64,000 nt of DNA from the NCBI GenBank assembly GCA_902826685.1, contig CADEFT010000002.1, forward strand, positions 124,001 to 188,000, written 5' to 3'. Positions 1,897 to 9,063 of the stretch are shown here, in pieces (position 1 is the stretch's first letter; every line of letters starts with the position of its first letter). The notes under the pieces were generated by a model. It did not search any database and was not told the origin of the DNA. It was given only the letters and a program-made list of their open reading frames with translations. Made by a program: the position numbers and the translations under genes. The DNA comes from an uncultured Acidobacteriota bacterium (GTDB taxonomy: Bacteria; Acidobacteriota; Terriglobia; Bryobacterales; Bryobacteraceae).

Positions 1897-3843
1897 CTAT
1901 TTCCTTTTGGAAGTACCTGCCGTATCGAGATGCCCACAATCGCCGACGACCAGAATGCGTTTCTTCCGATGGATATGGAAATAGAACCGGAAATACTTGT
2001 TGCCTGTTTGAAGTTTGACGTGAGGGGTTATGTCGATACTCTCACCGTCGAACTGCTCCGACCGTGACCGCATAAGTCTACTATCGCCCTTGGTTTGACT
2101 GCCCTCGTGGAACGACATCTCTATCCCTGAACGGGCTCTGAATTCCTTCTCAATATCGATCTGTTTTTCCGGGTCGAAAGCTAGAGCATAGAGCGTGTTG
2201 GCCATATGCCACAAGGCGGTCCAGACGGCATTCACCTTTGGGAAGTCGGATCTGCCCGCCGAGTCAAGTGCTCGTTGAGTGAAAACCACCCGATCTGGAA
2301 ACGCACTGGAGAAAAAGCGACAGCATTCGAGGATTGACTCAGGCAAATCACCCAACTCAGAAAACTTCTTTAGTCGATCTTCTGCCGCGGAGCGCATCTG
2401 TCGTTGAGCGAGCGCTTCTTCCCGTTGTTCTTTCTCTTGGTAGCGGAGTCCCTTTACTTCGTCTTCCCTCTCCTGAGTTTCAAGTTCCGCGAACTCCAAT
2501 CGCTCTGCCAGGGATGCCTTCTCGGCCTCGGCTGCGCGACACTTGTGGTCAAGTTCCTTGTTGATAGACTCCAGTAACTCCATCATTTCGGCCGGAGGTG
2601 CGGTAGCCAGTTTGTTCTTCAGACGGCTGAACTCTTGCTCCTGCTTCTTCAGACGAACGTCATCGATATTCGCAACCCCAGCCGCCGAGGACAGAATAAT
2701 CCGTCGTGCGAGTGATTGAACGATGATTCGAATAACTTCCTGAGCCCCATCTCTACGCACCTCATCGGCAGTAAAGTAACGGTGACGCCGGTAGTCATTC
2801 GGTCTATCGAACTGGACGCCCGGAAGATAGACTCGGATTCGTCCATTCCAGCACCAGTATTTTGGCGGAAGTCGACGTTCCGTTTCTTTGTCCAGCCAAT
2901 TCGATTCGGCGACGTAGACAGGCGCAAGGCCCGCAAGCTTCCAAGCTAGATCGTTGGAATCGAGTACCGCGTCCCCGGAGGCGAATTCACGAGAAACATA
3001 GATTAGAGGGCACCTGCGATTCTTGTCGCAGATGCGCTCGACGAGAAGCTCGGCGTCGTCCGGCGTGACCTCGTTCTCCCGAGCGGTAAGGGGCTGTGAG
3101 CCCGCATAGGTCACAAGTCCCGCAGCCTGAAACAGTTTCTTAACAAGGAGCGGCGAAGTCGGATCGGGTACCGCTGGTTCAGGTCCAAAGTGCCCCGGCA
3201 ATAAGTAGTGGGACACTTGCATAGAAAAGACCACCGACTCGCCTTTGGTCGACAAAGAAATGTCCGTGCGCCATTGGCGCTGGCTGGACCCTCTTTCGTC
3301 TCGGCCAATACCATCTGGGTGTTCGTATCGCATCGCCCAGAACTGATTACCCGCGTCGTCTTTCGCGCTGTCGACCTCGATCCTCACACGTTGCGAGAGT
3401 GGAGAAATCCATCGCCCGTTGTCACGGAACCAAGCCCCTCCCAGGCCCTTCGTGTCGCCTCTTTGCTTCGAAAGAACCCACCTCTGGGCTTCTTCTAAGA
3501 CCTGCGCCAACGGGGGGTGTTTGTCTTCCCGGGATATCTCGAATTCACAGCGGAAGTGCAGGCGCTGGTCCTGCACGACTGATGGCATTGCGGTTTGTGT
3601 AGTGCCTGCCTGCATGGCTTCTTCGACGGAGCTTGCATTATGATACGGTTGAAATCTTAATGCCAGAGGTCCTTTGAGGGGTGTGGCTCCAGAGATTCCC
3701 GTGATTGCCGTTCGTGTGAATTCCCTAACGAATGGATGGCAGAGAGGATGAGCGTGCGCACCAACCAAATGAAGGGGTTGGCTTGATCGGCCGTGACAGA
3801 AAACGGCTGCAAAAACTGAAAGAAAACCGGGCGTACCGCCCAC
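1897..3843 (-). CDS. Unknown multidomain protein with central coiled coil, probable foreign gene
   Basis: Up to 648 residues. The first 75 or so read like non-coding sequence (histidine/proline rich), so the true start may be the internal ATG at 3615 or 3588. The N-terminal half (about residues 95-400) is a globular region with LIYVSREFASG and KYWCWNGRIRVYLPG segments; residues about 410-500 are highly charged and predicted coiled coil (QEQEFSRLKNK, then KASLAERLEFAELETQERE); the C-terminal 60 residues form a compact basic domain (YFRFYFHIHRKKRILVVGDCGHLDT) whose shape recalls small RelE/HigB-like folds, though this is only a resemblance. GC content is visibly lower than that of the neighbours, and codon use differs. 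It stands alone between unrelated housekeeping genes. I do not recognise the family; a defence or mobile-element role is a guess. Confidence 0.65.
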   Translation of the reverse strand: MGGTPGFLSVFAAVFCHGRSSQPLHLVGAHAHPLCHPFVREFTRTAITGISGATPLKGPLALRFQPYHNASSVEEAMQAGTTQTAMPSVVQDQRLHFRCEFEISREDKHPPLAQVLEEAQRWVLSKQRGDTKGLGGAWFRDNGRWISPLSQRVRIEVDSAKDDAGNQFWAMRYEHPDGIGRDERGSSQRQWRTDISLSTKGESVVFSMQVSHYLLPGHFGPEPAVPDPTSPLLVKKLFQAAGLVTYAGSQPLTARENEVTPDDAELLVERICDKNRRCPLIYVSREFASGDAVLDSNDLAWKLAGLAPVYVAESNWLDKETERRLPPKYWCWNGRIRVYLPGVQFDRPNDYRRHRYFTADEVRRDGAQEVIRIIVQSLARRIILSSAAGVANIDDVRLKKQEQEFSRLKNKLATAPPAEMMELLESINKELDHKCRAAEAEKASLAERLEFAELETQEREDEVKGLRYQEKEQREEALAQRQMRSAAEDRLKKFSELGDLPESILECCRFFSSAFPDRVVFTQRALDSAGRSDFPKVNAVWTALWHMANTLYALAFDPEKQIDIEKEFRARSGIEMSFHEGSQTKGDSRLMRSRSEQFDGESIDITPHVKLQTGNKYFRFYFHIHRKKRILVVGDCGHLDTAGTSKRK

Positions 3844-3945
3844 ATTCCCACGCGATTCGAAAGCAGCGACCTCCCGCGCCCCTGTTTCTGCTATTCTAGT
3901 TTTTCCAATTGCACTCTCGCCTGCTTTAGGCCCCGTAAAGAGTGA

Positions 3946-5019
<1,074 letters not shown>

Positions 5020-5073: not shown

Positions 5074-5841
5074 GTGCAGTCACCGGCGCGGGAGGGTTCC
5101 ATTTCCACGGGCTTGGCCGAAGTCGACGCCATGCTCGGCTGCGGCGGTTTGCCGCGCGGCCGTATCGTCGAGCTTTTCGGCCCTCCGGGCTCTGGCAAAT
5201 CCACGCTGGGTCTGCTGTGGGGTGCGGCCGCGCAAAAGCAGGAACTGGCGGTTGTTTTCGTCGATGTGGAACATAGCCTCACCACGGCCTGGGCCGAATC
5301 CTGCGGCGTGAATCCCGGCGATCTGGTGGTCCTGCAACCCGGCAACGGGGAAGAAGCGCTGTCCATGACCGAATCGCTGCTGCGCACCTTCGGGGTCGAC
5401 CTGATCGTGGTGGATTCGGCCGCCGCGCTGATCCCGCGGGAGGAGGTGGACGCCGTCGAAGAGGCGCCGGCCGATGCCCACACCGAGCTGCTTTACCGCT
5501 ATTTGAGGCGCCTGCAAATGGCCGCACAGCGGGCCAATGCCTGCCTCCTGTTCCTGAACCAGACCCGTGCCGGCCAGGATAACGAGAATCGCACCGCCGG
5601 CGGCCGCGCGCTGGCGCTTTATTCCTCCATCCGCCTGCGCATCGGAGACGTGCTGCCCATTCGCGAGCGGGGCGAGACCGTCGGCCATCAACTGACACTC
5701 ACGGCGATCAAGAACAAACTGGCCGATCCGTTCCAGCAGGCAGTGGTCCAACTGCGCGGCTCATCGCTGACGGCGGTGGATCGCAAACCGGCGGCCAGGC
5801 AATACGCCGCGGCGGCCGCCCAAGGCTGGCGCTCGGCCTGA
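5074..5841 (+). CDS. Short RecA paralogue (RecA/RadA-type ATPase)
   Basis: 255 residues that align across the RecA ATPase core but lack the N-terminal helix region and the whole C-terminal domain of the roughly 350-residue recombinase. Seen: Walker A GPPGSGKST at 37-45 (standard RecA has GPESSGKTT), the catalytic glutamate E67 in VDVEHSL, Walker B VDLIVVDS at 108-115, and the allosteric glutamine Q163 in FLNQTR. The loop-1 and loop-2 DNA-binding regions are both shortened and altered. The start is a GTG with almost no spacing to a GGA, so initiation may be weak or leaderless. ImuA-type proteins are also short RecA relatives, but no imuB or dnaE2 is adjacent. It is probably not the cell's main RecA. 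It follows gap and lies 33 bases before the deiminase cassette; a functional link is not established. Confidence 0.8.
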   Translation: MQSPAREGSISTGLAEVDAMLGCGGLPRGRIVELFGPPGSGKSTLGLLWGAAAQKQELAVVFVDVEHSLTTAWAESCGVNPGDLVVLQPGNGEEALSMTESLLRTFGVDLIVVDSAAALIPREEVDAVEEAPADAHTELLYRYLRRLQMAAQRANACLLFLNQTRAGQDNENRTAGGRALALYSSIRLRIGDVLPIRERGETVGHQLTLTAIKNKLADPFQQAVVQLRGSSLTAVDRKPAARQYAAAAAQGWRSA

Positions 5842-5874: not shown

Positions 5875-6639
5875 GTGATCATCCGAGTCACGCAACAGGA
5901 AACGCTGCGGGAGGCGGGTGCGGACGCCTTCGAGGGCGAGATGGCCGATTATCTGGCCGGCTATGCGCCCAAGCTGTTTGAGCTGCGCGGCCGTGCGGTC
6001 TTCCAGGCCGTCGTGCGCACCGGCATCGGCCGCGCTCGCGAACTGGGCTTTACCTGCCGCGGCCCGATTCGCCTGGTCCTTGAATGCATGGTCACCTTCG
6101 GCGCCGGCTTTGATACGGACCCGCTCTATCCCGGCATCCGGGCGTCGCTCGCAATGCCGAAGGAATCGAACGAAATGGATCGCGCCGAAGCGGTTTACCA
6201 AAGCGTACGCCAATACTGGGCGGCCGTTGTCGGAAAGGACGGCTGCCTATTCCTGCCCGCCATCGGACGCTTGCGCGCGTTCGCCAATCGGCCCGTGGCG
6301 GCGCAGGGAATCGACGAGCTGCTCGGCGATTTCAAGGCGGCCTACCCGCAGCGCTTCGATCAGGCGACGGACGCGGGGATGAGGCGGTTGATCGATCGTG
6401 CCGCATCGGCTGTCGCGGCTACCGGGCTGCCGCGCTCCGGCGAGCCAGTCGCCGTCATGGCGGCGCTGATGTTCGGTTTCGGCCATGAAGTTCTAAACGA
6501 CCCGCTTTACCCCTGGGTGCGGGCCGCCCTGGAAGATCCACAGGTACCCGAGCCCGGCGATCGCGTCTTCCGTCTGCGCGACCGGGCGGTGGTTTATCTC
6601 GATCATGTAGCCAAATACTGGAGCCGCGATGCCCGATAA
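5875..6639 (+). CDS. Two-repeat protein resembling type VI secretion-associated small proteins
   Basis: 254 residues, GTG start, with no signal peptide. It contains an internal duplication: DPLYPGIRASL at 82-92 followed by a helix ending QYW, and DPLYPWVRAAL at 209-219 followed by a helix ending KYW, each preceded by a helical segment with a glycine-rich end (FGAGFDT and FGFGHEV). From memory, small proteins beginning with an IxxxQ...FExxM helix and carrying an FDTDPxxPW motif occur beside VgrG and effector genes in type VI secretion loci; I could not verify that by search. It overlaps the next gene, the arginine deiminase, by 11 bases, so the two are translationally coupled and likely work together, for example as adaptor, chaperone or immunity partner. 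Confidence 0.7.
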   Translation: MIIRVTQQETLREAGADAFEGEMADYLAGYAPKLFELRGRAVFQAVVRTGIGRARELGFTCRGPIRLVLECMVTFGAGFDTDPLYPGIRASLAMPKESNEMDRAEAVYQSVRQYWAAVVGKDGCLFLPAIGRLRAFANRPVAAQGIDELLGDFKAAYPQRFDQATDAGMRRLIDRAASAVAATGLPRSGEPVAVMAALMFGFGHEVLNDPLYPWVRAALEDPQVPEPGDRVFRLRDRAVVYLDHVAKYWSRDAR

Positions 6640-8446
6640 GGAACCGTCCAGTCCGTCCACCGGCCCCAGTCCCGGCTGCCGTCCGGGCGATCCGGTGCCG
6701 TGCCCGCTTGAGCCCGAATACCATCTGCATGTGGACGCCGATCGCGACGGCCGCGTGGACGACGACCACCGCGGCATCGGCTCCTGGACCTGGGGCATCG
6801 CCGGCAAGGGGGCCATTATTCTTGCCAACTGCGACGACGAGGACGGCACCCACAATCCCGACAACGAGGACAACAAGATCAACAACGCCCCCGATCCCGG
6901 CGACATCGCTCCGCTCGAGATCCGCCGGGTCGCGGGCAAGCCCGTGGCGCCGGGGAGTTGGACCGGGTTCCTCGAAGTCGATCCCGCCGATCAGCCGCGC
7001 ATTCGCATCTTCGACTCGCGTGCCGCCGGGGCGCCCGAGATCATCGGGCCGGCGACTACGCATTCCTACCAACTGCCTACGCTTGGCTTCCAGACCAGGG
7101 AGTTCGGCATGGAAGCCGCCGTGTATCCGGGTGCGGGATTCAGCGGGGAGATCGCCATTACGTTCCGCATCGTCGAGCCCGCCGGAACGCATTCGGAATC
7201 GGCCATGGTCCGCGTGGCGCCCTGGGTGCAATTCAACCACTGGGACCCGACCGAAGAGACCTATGTCGTCGAAACCGCCGACAACGCCGATTTCCGGGCC
7301 GACCTGGCACGAGAGGTGACCGGCGCCGGGTTTCCCGCTCCGCGCACTACCTCCAACTCGGACCGCTGGATGCAGGACGTGATGGAAATCGGTTACTCCT
7401 CGATGCCCAAGCCGGGCGCACCCGCGACATGGAGTACGCCCGTCGTTCTGCGCACCGCCAACGACCGCATGCGGATTCCCGAATGGGCTTCCGATCTTGA
7501 TCGCTATCCGAAGAGCGTCCTGCTCGGGCAGAACTACGGCTTCGTGCAGGCCCTGCCTCCGATGATCGGAAGTTCCCTCGATTCGTTCGGCAATCTGGAA
7601 TGCTCGCCGCCCTTCACCCACACCGTTCGTGGAAAGGAATATAAATTCGGCCGGATCGTGTATGGTGCCGACGCCGCCCGTCCCCTGCGTAACGTCCAGC
7701 CGGAAGTAGTGGACTTCCTCACGGCGCAGACCGTGCAGGAGCCGTTCTCGATCGATACCGGCTGGCTCGTGGTTGGCCACGTCGATGAAGTGGTGTCGTT
7801 CTGCCCGATGAAAAACGCGCCCAAGGGTTTCAAGGTGCTGTTGGCCAGCCCCGACAGCGCCATGAGGATCCTTCGCGGGTTGCAAGCGGCCGGCAGGGGG
7901 ACGGCGGGACTGTTCCGGAGTTCCAACGTCGTTCCGGCGGGCATCCGTTTCGGTCCCGGCTATACGCTGGCGAACCGCCGCGCCGACTACCCGTTCGATA
8001 CCGCCAATCTGATTCTGGGCGACGCCGCGTTCGTGCAGGTGCAAACCGATACACAGGCTCTGATCGACGGCATCAAAGTCACTCTTTCCACGGAACTGGA
8101 CTTGAACCCAACCGACTTCATCGACATTCCGGTGCTTTTCAAAGAGGACGGCCCGGGGCTGTACGTCGCCTATAATCCGGGATCGGTCAACATGCTGCAC
8201 CTGACCAAGGGCGATCATACGGTCCGCGTCTGCGTGCCGCGTCCCTTTGGGCCGGTCAACGACAATGTGGACCGCTTTGCCCGCGATATTCTGGATTCGC
8301 TGGGACCGGCGGCCACCACGGGCGTGGAGGTGAAGTTCATCGACGACTTCGTTACCTATCATGTGCTGTACGGCGAAATCCATTGCGGCACCAACAGCAA
8401 ACGCAAACCGCGCACCGACGCCTGGTGGTGGCATCATCAACCGTGA
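6629..8446 (+). CDS. Protein-arginine deiminase (vertebrate PAD-type, PAD_M plus PAD_C)
   Basis: 605 residues. The predicted activity is calcium-dependent conversion of peptidyl-arginine to citrulline. All catalytic residues of human PAD4 have counterparts: D250 in DRWMQD (PAD4 D350), H384 and D386 in VGHVDE (H471, D473), and C586 in HCGTN (C645). LDSFGNLE at 318-325, VNMLHL at 520-525 and the WW-containing C-terminus also match the animal enzymes. The middle domain carries the VDADRDGRVDDD calcium loop at 35-46 and SWTWG at 52-56. The N-terminal PAD_N domain is absent and is replaced by about 30 proline-rich residues. Calcium site 1 ligands are kept (Q249, E253, F320, L323, E324), but the site 2 glutamate is V251. 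There is no signal peptide, so the protein is cytoplasmic or exported by a leaderless route. It lies in a three-gene cassette. Confidence 0.92.
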   Translation: MPDKEPSSPSTGPSPGCRPGDPVPCPLEPEYHLHVDADRDGRVDDDHRGIGSWTWGIAGKGAIILANCDDEDGTHNPDNEDNKINNAPDPGDIAPLEIRRVAGKPVAPGSWTGFLEVDPADQPRIRIFDSRAAGAPEIIGPATTHSYQLPTLGFQTREFGMEAAVYPGAGFSGEIAITFRIVEPAGTHSESAMVRVAPWVQFNHWDPTEETYVVETADNADFRADLAREVTGAGFPAPRTTSNSDRWMQDVMEIGYSSMPKPGAPATWSTPVVLRTANDRMRIPEWASDLDRYPKSVLLGQNYGFVQALPPMIGSSLDSFGNLECSPPFTHTVRGKEYKFGRIVYGADAARPLRNVQPEVVDFLTAQTVQEPFSIDTGWLVVGHVDEVVSFCPMKNAPKGFKVLLASPDSAMRILRGLQAAGRGTAGLFRSSNVVPAGIRFGPGYTLANRRADYPFDTANLILGDAAFVQVQTDTQALIDGIKVTLSTELDLNPTDFIDIPVLFKEDGPGLYVAYNPGSVNMLHLTKGDHTVRVCVPRPFGPVNDNVDRFARDILDSLGPAATTGVEVKFIDDFVTYHVLYGEIHCGTNSKRKPRTDAWWWHHQP

Positions 8447-8451
8447 GACCC

Positions 8452-9063
8452 ATGACGAAATCGCCCGAACTGGACACACTCATTCGCTTGGAGGGAAGGC
8501 CCTACATCGAGCTGCGCGACCGCATTCTCGCCTCGAGCCAGTTGTTGCAGCCGATTCTCAACCAGCCCGAGGCCGGGGAAGCCTGGCAGGTGCGCATTCA
8601 TCGCGAGATCCTGCGCGGCTGGCTCGAACACCGCGACCTGTTTTTGCGGGTTCAAGCCGACCTCAACAACATCAACGTCGAAACCGAGCGGAAGAAGATC
8701 ACCGGCGTCAGTGGCGTCTGGACACGGTTTTCCGCGCTCGCCTCTCGCGTATACAAGGAACCGGTGCTGCCGCTTTGTTGGGAAGCGATCCTGAAGCTGC
8801 GCGGTTTTGTGCCGGAATGGCAGCTATTGACTTACCTGCACATGGTGTCGGTGTTGCCGCATCCGTTGTCGGTCGAGCCGGTGGCCGGGTTTATCGAGCG
8901 ATCCCAGGAGGCCGGTTCCGCCGATCTGGCCGGGCGGGTGCTCGAAGCGCTGCCCCGGGAGGCCGTGCTGGACGCCGTCGACGCGCGGCTGGCCCAACCG
9001 GCTCCCGCCGGGCAGCCCTTTCGCGCGATTCTCGACCGCACGAAGGCGCGTCTGCTCAAATAG
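8452..9063 (+). CDS. Unknown helical protein, third gene of the deiminase cassette
   Basis: 203 residues starting at an ATG five bases after the deiminase stop. I chose this start because the longer frame upstream lies inside the deiminase gene. The protein is soluble, with no signal peptide or membrane segment. The middle region (WTRFSALASRVYKEP) and the C-terminal half look all-helical. I do not recognise the family. Its tight spacing after the deiminase suggests a partner, immunity or loading function. A 9-bp inverted repeat just after the stop may end the transcript. Confidence 0.7.
   Translation: MTKSPELDTLIRLEGRPYIELRDRILASSQLLQPILNQPEAGEAWQVRIHREILRGWLEHRDLFLRVQADLNNINVETERKKITGVSGVWTRFSALASRVYKEPVLPLCWEAILKLRGFVPEWQLLTYLHMVSVLPHPLSVEPVAGFIERSQEAGSADLAGRVLEALPREAVLDAVDARLAQPAPAGQPFRAILDRTKARLLK

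Follow-up and report, generated by a model that had tools for sequence, protein, structure and literature searches.

A protein-arginine deiminase between predicted adaptor and immunity genes: a putative type VI secretion cargo cassette in Acidobacteriota

Three tightly packed genes of an uncultured Acidobacteriota bacterium are, we consider likely from comparison of their sequences, a cargo cassette of the type VI secretion system (T6SS): an adaptor (gene A), an injected effector that is a protein-arginine deiminase (PAD), and an immunity protein (gene C). They lie on the forward strand of a 64-kb stretch of contig CADEFT010000002.1, here called the window. Gene A (5875-6639; GTG start, 254 aa) encodes a predicted T6SS cargo adaptor with two tandem adaptor C-terminal helical lobes. 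The PAD gene (6629-8446; ATG start, 605 aa) encodes a two-domain deiminase, the predicted effector. Gene C (8452-9063; ATG start, 203 aa) encodes the predicted immunity protein, with a possible HEAT-like helical fold. Gene A and the PAD gene overlap by 11 bases, and 5 bases separate the PAD gene from gene C. An earlier reading of this DNA (the original prediction) had given the same positions, overlap and gap, and measurement bears them out. The analysis shows the catalytic residues of the PAD, the conserved pairing of PAD with gene C, the tie between the gene A family and the T6SS, the match of the gene A model to the fold of an adaptor lobe, the absence of that lobe from DUF4123 proteins of genomes with gene A, and, in the host, core T6SS genes and a VgrG-DUF4123-PAAR set.

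In the mechanism that we propose, gene A would bind the PAD, perhaps through the proline-rich N-terminal tail of the PAD, and would bring a helical lobe for cargo binding, which is missing from the short DUF4123 protein of the host. DUF4123 would dock gene A on the one VgrG that the genome encodes, at another locus and together with its PAAR. The spike would carry the PAD into a neighbouring cell, where it would deiminate protein arginines to citrulline, and gene C would bind the PAD and so shield sister cells or the producer. More specifically, and here we lean only slightly towards the proposal, this PAD clade would consist of T6SS effectors with their own immunity family, loaded by a split adaptor that has a DUF4123 docking half and a gene A cargo half of one or two lobes. 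With the two halves encoded by separate genes, one spike could be shared by many dispersed cassettes, each contributing its own lobe.

The deiminase and gene C

The PAD matches PF03068 at 294 bits (cut-off 25; catalytic domain, residues 189-600, 7193-8428) and PF08527, the middle domain PAD_M, at 80 bits (cut-off 24.8; residues 33-182, 6725-7174). Against the PDB it finds human PAD4 (E about 1e-73). The catalytic set was claimed to be complete, and indeed D250 (codon 7376-7378), H384 (7778-7780), D386 (7784-7786) and C586 (8384-8386) are unchanged in all 27 aligned PADs, that of the window included; we take these residues to be D350, H471, D473 and C645 of PAD4. The protein is predicted to convert protein arginines to citrulline. 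It is the only PF03068 match in the host genome.

The label 'vertebrate-type' that the PAD had been given does not hold. Both marks of the three-domain PADs of animals and cyanobacteria are absent: Pfam finds no PAD_N domain at E <= 1, and in the alignment to PAD4 an Asn stands where PAD4 has its calcium-switch Asp (position taken partly from PMC8826395, partly presumed). The protein is therefore one of the two-domain PADs known from bacteria and fungi, which likewise consist of PAD_M and PAD_C, have no PAD_N and have lost the calcium-switch residue (PMC8826395). What differs here is that one clade is linked to the T6SS and to gene C; the words 'secretion' and 'toxin' are absent from the main text of that paper.

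Gene C goes with the PAD. We collected 88 PAD loci, in which one gene is counted twice (L008, L010), and searched 51 of the about 85 PAD genomes for gene A, sheath genes and gene C, leaving out most of the cyanobacterial and some other genomes. All 11 gene C matches adjoin a PAD. A word search of the protein database found no relative of gene C; this reflects a limit of that search, because clear relatives do stand next to PAD in the loci that we fetched. PADs of the gene C clade lie beside VgrG, DUF4123 or PAAR in 7 of 11 loci, as against none of the 77 other PAD loci. That zero is partly a matter of sensitivity, since the T6SS-marker profiles, which we used for the window, the PAD loci and the phylum loci alike, rest on a small set of loci from this clade and on the host's own genome; moreover, 12 of the 77 loci are shorter than 8 kb. 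Gene C is a probable immunity protein for the PAD.

Signal-like N-termini, judged by hydrophobicity and not by a signal peptide program, occur on 6 of the 11 gene C relatives and point to the periplasm as target compartment. Calcium is more plentiful there. The gene C of the window has no such hydrophobic start, and its product would stay in the cytosol. Gene calls in the relatives are simple choices of open reading frame (ORF), and some starts are misplaced.

The gene C clade holds other layouts too: a PAD directly after VgrG (L017), a fusion to an OmpA/peptidoglycan-binding part (L015, which is P0031) and a fusion to PAAR (P0109). P0093, in which PF13665 is joined to a PAD, falls just outside the clade in the PAD tree, from which 5 of the 88 loci were left out as too short or broken (L007, L008, L010, L028, L073). 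We presume PF13665 to be DUF4150, a PAAR-like family. Such PAAR-PAD, PF13665-PAD and OmpA/peptidoglycan-binding-PAD fusions (P0109, P0093, P0007 and others) have the same PAD domains as the protein described here; in them the PAAR, PF13665 or cell-envelope part belongs to the same protein, whereas here gene A is separate. In the database PAD P0039 the N-terminus (MFKVRKEQKEAFAAAA) resembles, by eye, a first helix of gene A type fused to the PAD.

Two further groups of PADs are of note. In L061-L086, from another PAD clade, in Myxococcota, several PAD genes slightly overlap a downstream gene whose product starts with a hydrophobic stretch and does not match the gene C profile; these genes are perhaps a second family of PAD partners. 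In the tree, the Methanophagales archaeal PADs of L035, L046 and L049 group with PADs of Vibrio, Paenibacillus and actinobacteria.

Gene A and its ties to type VI secretion

Gene A is internally duplicated, as had been claimed. Its halves align to each other with an hhalign probability of 99.5 (E 1.4e-22), whereas a reversed control reaches 0.2. Unit 1 (about residues 4-114, 5884-6216; unit profile E 3.8e-37) aligns to the C-terminal lobe of Tap3, and unit 2 (about residues 140-254, 6292-6636; E 2.7e-35) carries a conserved DPLYPWV motif. Tap3 is the DUF4123 adaptor of the Tap3-Tke5-Tki5 adaptor, effector and immunity set of Pseudomonas putida (PMC12909789). A structural model of gene A matches this lobe, the helical C-terminal lobe of DUF4123 (Tap) adaptors. 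No N-terminal DUF4123 domain, and no Pfam family at E <= 1, was found in gene A. The DUF4123 proteins that we fetched from genomes with gene A lack the C-lobe; with a DUF4123 protein as query, Tap3 was not recovered by sequence.

Neither gene A nor gene C has a convincing family in NCBIfam, PADLOC, Pfam or PHROGs or a relative by sequence in the PDB, where SAKe matches span just 26-27 residues, and profile comparison finds the two unrelated to each other. We dropped Tvp accessory proteins as an identity for gene A, since they are other families. Relatives of gene A are proteins of one or two units.

These relatives follow VgrG, DUF4123 or PAAR and precede a PAD or another candidate effector gene. 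Gene A stands immediately 5' of the PAD in 8 of the 88 PAD loci: the window itself (L001) and L011, L012, L013, L014, L018, L020 and L028. Among culturable bacteria, Nannocystis and Alteromonas sp. ASW11-130 have gene A next to a PAD. The order is VgrG-DUF4123-gene A-PAD-gene C in L020 and PAAR-DUF4123-gene A-PAD-gene C in four Nannocystis loci. In L018 VgrG, DUF4123, a gene A unit and two other genes are followed by DUF4280 (a weak PAAR match), a second gene A unit, PAD and gene C; the contig also carries sheath genes, at distances of about 6.6 and 15.5 kb from the PAD. Two proteins of L018 beside VgrG and the gene A units (3520-3975 and 7157-8218) are possible further effectors: one is a papain-fold protease resembling AvrRpt2 (PF12385, 27 bits), and the other matches M66 peptidases weakly, below the cut-off.

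The family also tracks the secretion machinery across genomes. Scoring for gene A covered a portion of the candidates from a first look, at most 52 per PAD genome and at most 6 per genome of a sample of the window's phylum. The sheath gene VipB is present in 10 of 10 PAD genomes that bear gene A, compared with 26 of the 51 PAD genomes overall. Among the 396 genomes of the phylum sample, which were not chosen for PAD, 11 have gene A and 60 have VipB, and all 11 gene A genomes are among the 60 (p 4e-10). Those 11 represent 6 genera, with 6 of the 11 from a single genus; at genus level VipB accompanies gene A in 6 of 6 genera, against 37 of 211 genera (p 2e-5). In 9 of the 11, gene A is about 11-17 kb from a sheath gene. 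The T6SS link that the original prediction had suggested for gene A is borne out by these counts.

We fetched 8 loci from the 10 other gene A-bearing genomes of the phylum sample (G149 and G173 were left out). By our own profiles, seven have the order VgrG-DUF4123-[PAAR]-gene A, with genes of unknown kind behind it, and in the eighth (L188) gene A, whose position there comes from the search of the phylum sample, adjoins DUF4123 and PAAR. The genes 3' of gene A are candidate effectors by position alone. All ten of these other genomes lack a PAD, and gene A is thus not linked exclusively to PAD. Two findings had been named that would speak against a joint cassette: independence of the three genes elsewhere, and membership of gene A in an unrelated housekeeping family. 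Gene C was never found away from PAD in the 51 genomes; gene A does occur apart from PAD, but in T6SS loci, and for that reason it is no housekeeping family. Gene A is a general T6SS part and not a PAD-only partner, which refines the original prediction and does not refute it.

In locus L171 (4695-7307, G401:C50) one protein of 871 aa fuses a gene A unit with two DUF4123 stretches and an FHA-like part that scores below the cut-off; the protein encoded next has 627 aa and no Pfam family. The fusion spans 57 residues of the gene A unit and was not reported by the gene A search of PAD genomes, so that the absence of a separate gene A in G401 is weak. Finally, the Pro/Ser/Gly-rich N-terminal tail of the PAD (MPDKEPSSPSTGPSPG..., 6629-6718) is, on weak evidence, a candidate recognition tail. 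Among the proteins behind gene A, we had an ORF from 17 of 18 loci, at least 2 of them (L011, L012) in the wrong frame, and a proline-rich tail in these proteins is a weak lead only.

Secretion genes of the host and competing explanations

The cassette itself is an orphan. Our own small profiles for VgrG, PAAR, Hcp, TssC, TssF and DUF4123 found no match in the window; the original statement that no PAAR, VgrG or sheath gene is near holds at that sensitivity. The cassette is flanked by a short RecA-like gene on one side and an HU gene on the other. The RecA-like gene (5074-5841, + strand; 255 aa, PF00154 at 188 bits) stops 33 bases upstream of gene A and may share a transcript with the cassette. 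A close-match search of 72,556 plasmid records gave no plasmid home for the cassette, and we dropped a reading of it as a defence system.

Elsewhere the host genome has T6SS genes. Contig C1 carries TssB, TssC, Hcp, ImpE, TssE, TssF and a ClpV-like ATPase, and C21 carries one VgrG, a PAAR gene and a short DUF4123 gene (198 aa). C15 has another DUF4123 match, which is weaker. The genes searched for and found include sheath, Hcp, baseplate, ATPase, VgrG and PAAR. In a simple ORF list no cargo gene is apparent right after the C21 PAAR. Relatives of gene A occur at four places, namely in the PAD cassette and on C4, C22 and C28 (the last weak, E 1.2e-4). On C22 a single-unit gene A (G000:C22:63454-63774; L118 9449-13113) precedes two genes whose products match no Pfam family, one of 775 aa and one of 319 aa that begins like a lipoprotein. 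This group is likely another effector-immunity cassette. Several dispersed gene A copies and a VgrG-DUF4123-PAAR set without apparent cargo fit one spike serving several cassettes. Away from the C1 genes, C46 encodes a diverged VipB/VipA-like fused sheath protein (G000:C46:31422-32243, L136 9384-10769; 166 and 31 bits), with a match of similar score in G349.

The genus-level counts, the Tap3 loop and DUF4123 matches outside the fetched set each soften a single support of the cargo cassette, not the whole, and leave our estimate of its likelihood as it was. The binding partners of genes A and C are predictions, the target of gene A in L182-L184 and similar loci could be VgrG or PAAR rather than cargo, and the other lobe of Tap3 makes much of the effector contact (PMC12909789). 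These last three points would suit a T6SS cassette with swapped roles, in which gene C is a chaperone or activator of the PAD and gene A a structural spike part or second immunity protein. We think this improbable: a periplasmic chaperone, as the signal-like starts of gene C relatives would imply, would not load a cytosolic effector, and gene A stands ahead of a variety of candidate effector genes and matches a lobe for which contact with effectors has been described.

The scatter of the cassette (C2), the sheath genes (C1 and C46) and the only VgrG match (C21) would suit a relic cassette that arrived with a T6SS island whose VgrG part has since been lost, and for which delivery in this genome has ceased. 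Its chances seem slim to us, given three intact and tightly spaced ORFs, kept catalytic residues, the three further dispersed gene A matches, and a spike set lacking an apparent cargo gene, as expected if dispersed cassettes share one spike. The stand-alone citrullination module that the original prediction had also offered, with the PAD modifying proteins of its own cell and genes A and C as its regulators or substrates, is consistent with the window and the 77 other PAD loci, whose fetched flanks lack T6SS markers, but fits poorly with the VgrG, DUF4123 or PAAR neighbours of the gene C-clade PADs, a sheath gene in every genome where gene A was found, and the signal-like starts of gene C relatives, and is very improbable. 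The comparative evidence, from the tie of the gene A family to the T6SS and from neighbourhoods in relatives, supports the effector-adaptor-immunity option instead.

Relation to known systems and implications

As a kind, the T6SS adaptor-effector-immunity cassette is already known. Compared with Tap3-Tke5-Tki5, gene A lacks the DUF4123 lobe and has the C-lobe in duplicate, and the effector is a deiminase whereas Tke5 is a MIX-domain pore former (PMC12909789). Tla1-Tle1-Tli1a of P. aeruginosa shares with our cassette an effector with adaptor and immunity genes away from the T6SS core, and an effector contacted by the helical C-domain of the adaptor, as would be the case here (PMC13133936). However, Tla1 unites both domains in a single protein encoded beside its VgrG, whereas our cassette would draw its two lobes from different proteins, each encoded at a locus of its own. 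Tvp accessory complexes are likewise multi-protein accessory sets close to VgrG and PAAR, but they are built on DUF2169, DUF6484, DUF3540 or PRK06147, and gene A matches no Pfam or NCBIfam family (PMC13373197).

Among the titles and abstract beginnings of the openly licensed PMC literature, we found no described T6SS role for this kind of PAD, nor did we meet a deiminase effector, the gene C family or a split, duplicated adaptor lobe.

Protein citrullination is a chemistry best known from animals. If these PADs are injected effectors, citrullination would join interbacterial warfare, and there would be a reason for the patchy scatter of PADs among bacteria. A split adaptor, if true, would explain how orphan effectors without a nearby DUF4123 gene reach the spike, and the gene A unit offers a sequence tag for finding unknown T6SS effectors. 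If our reading of gene C is true, its product would be a naturally occurring protein that inhibits a PAD, which is of interest given that human PADs are targets for drugs.
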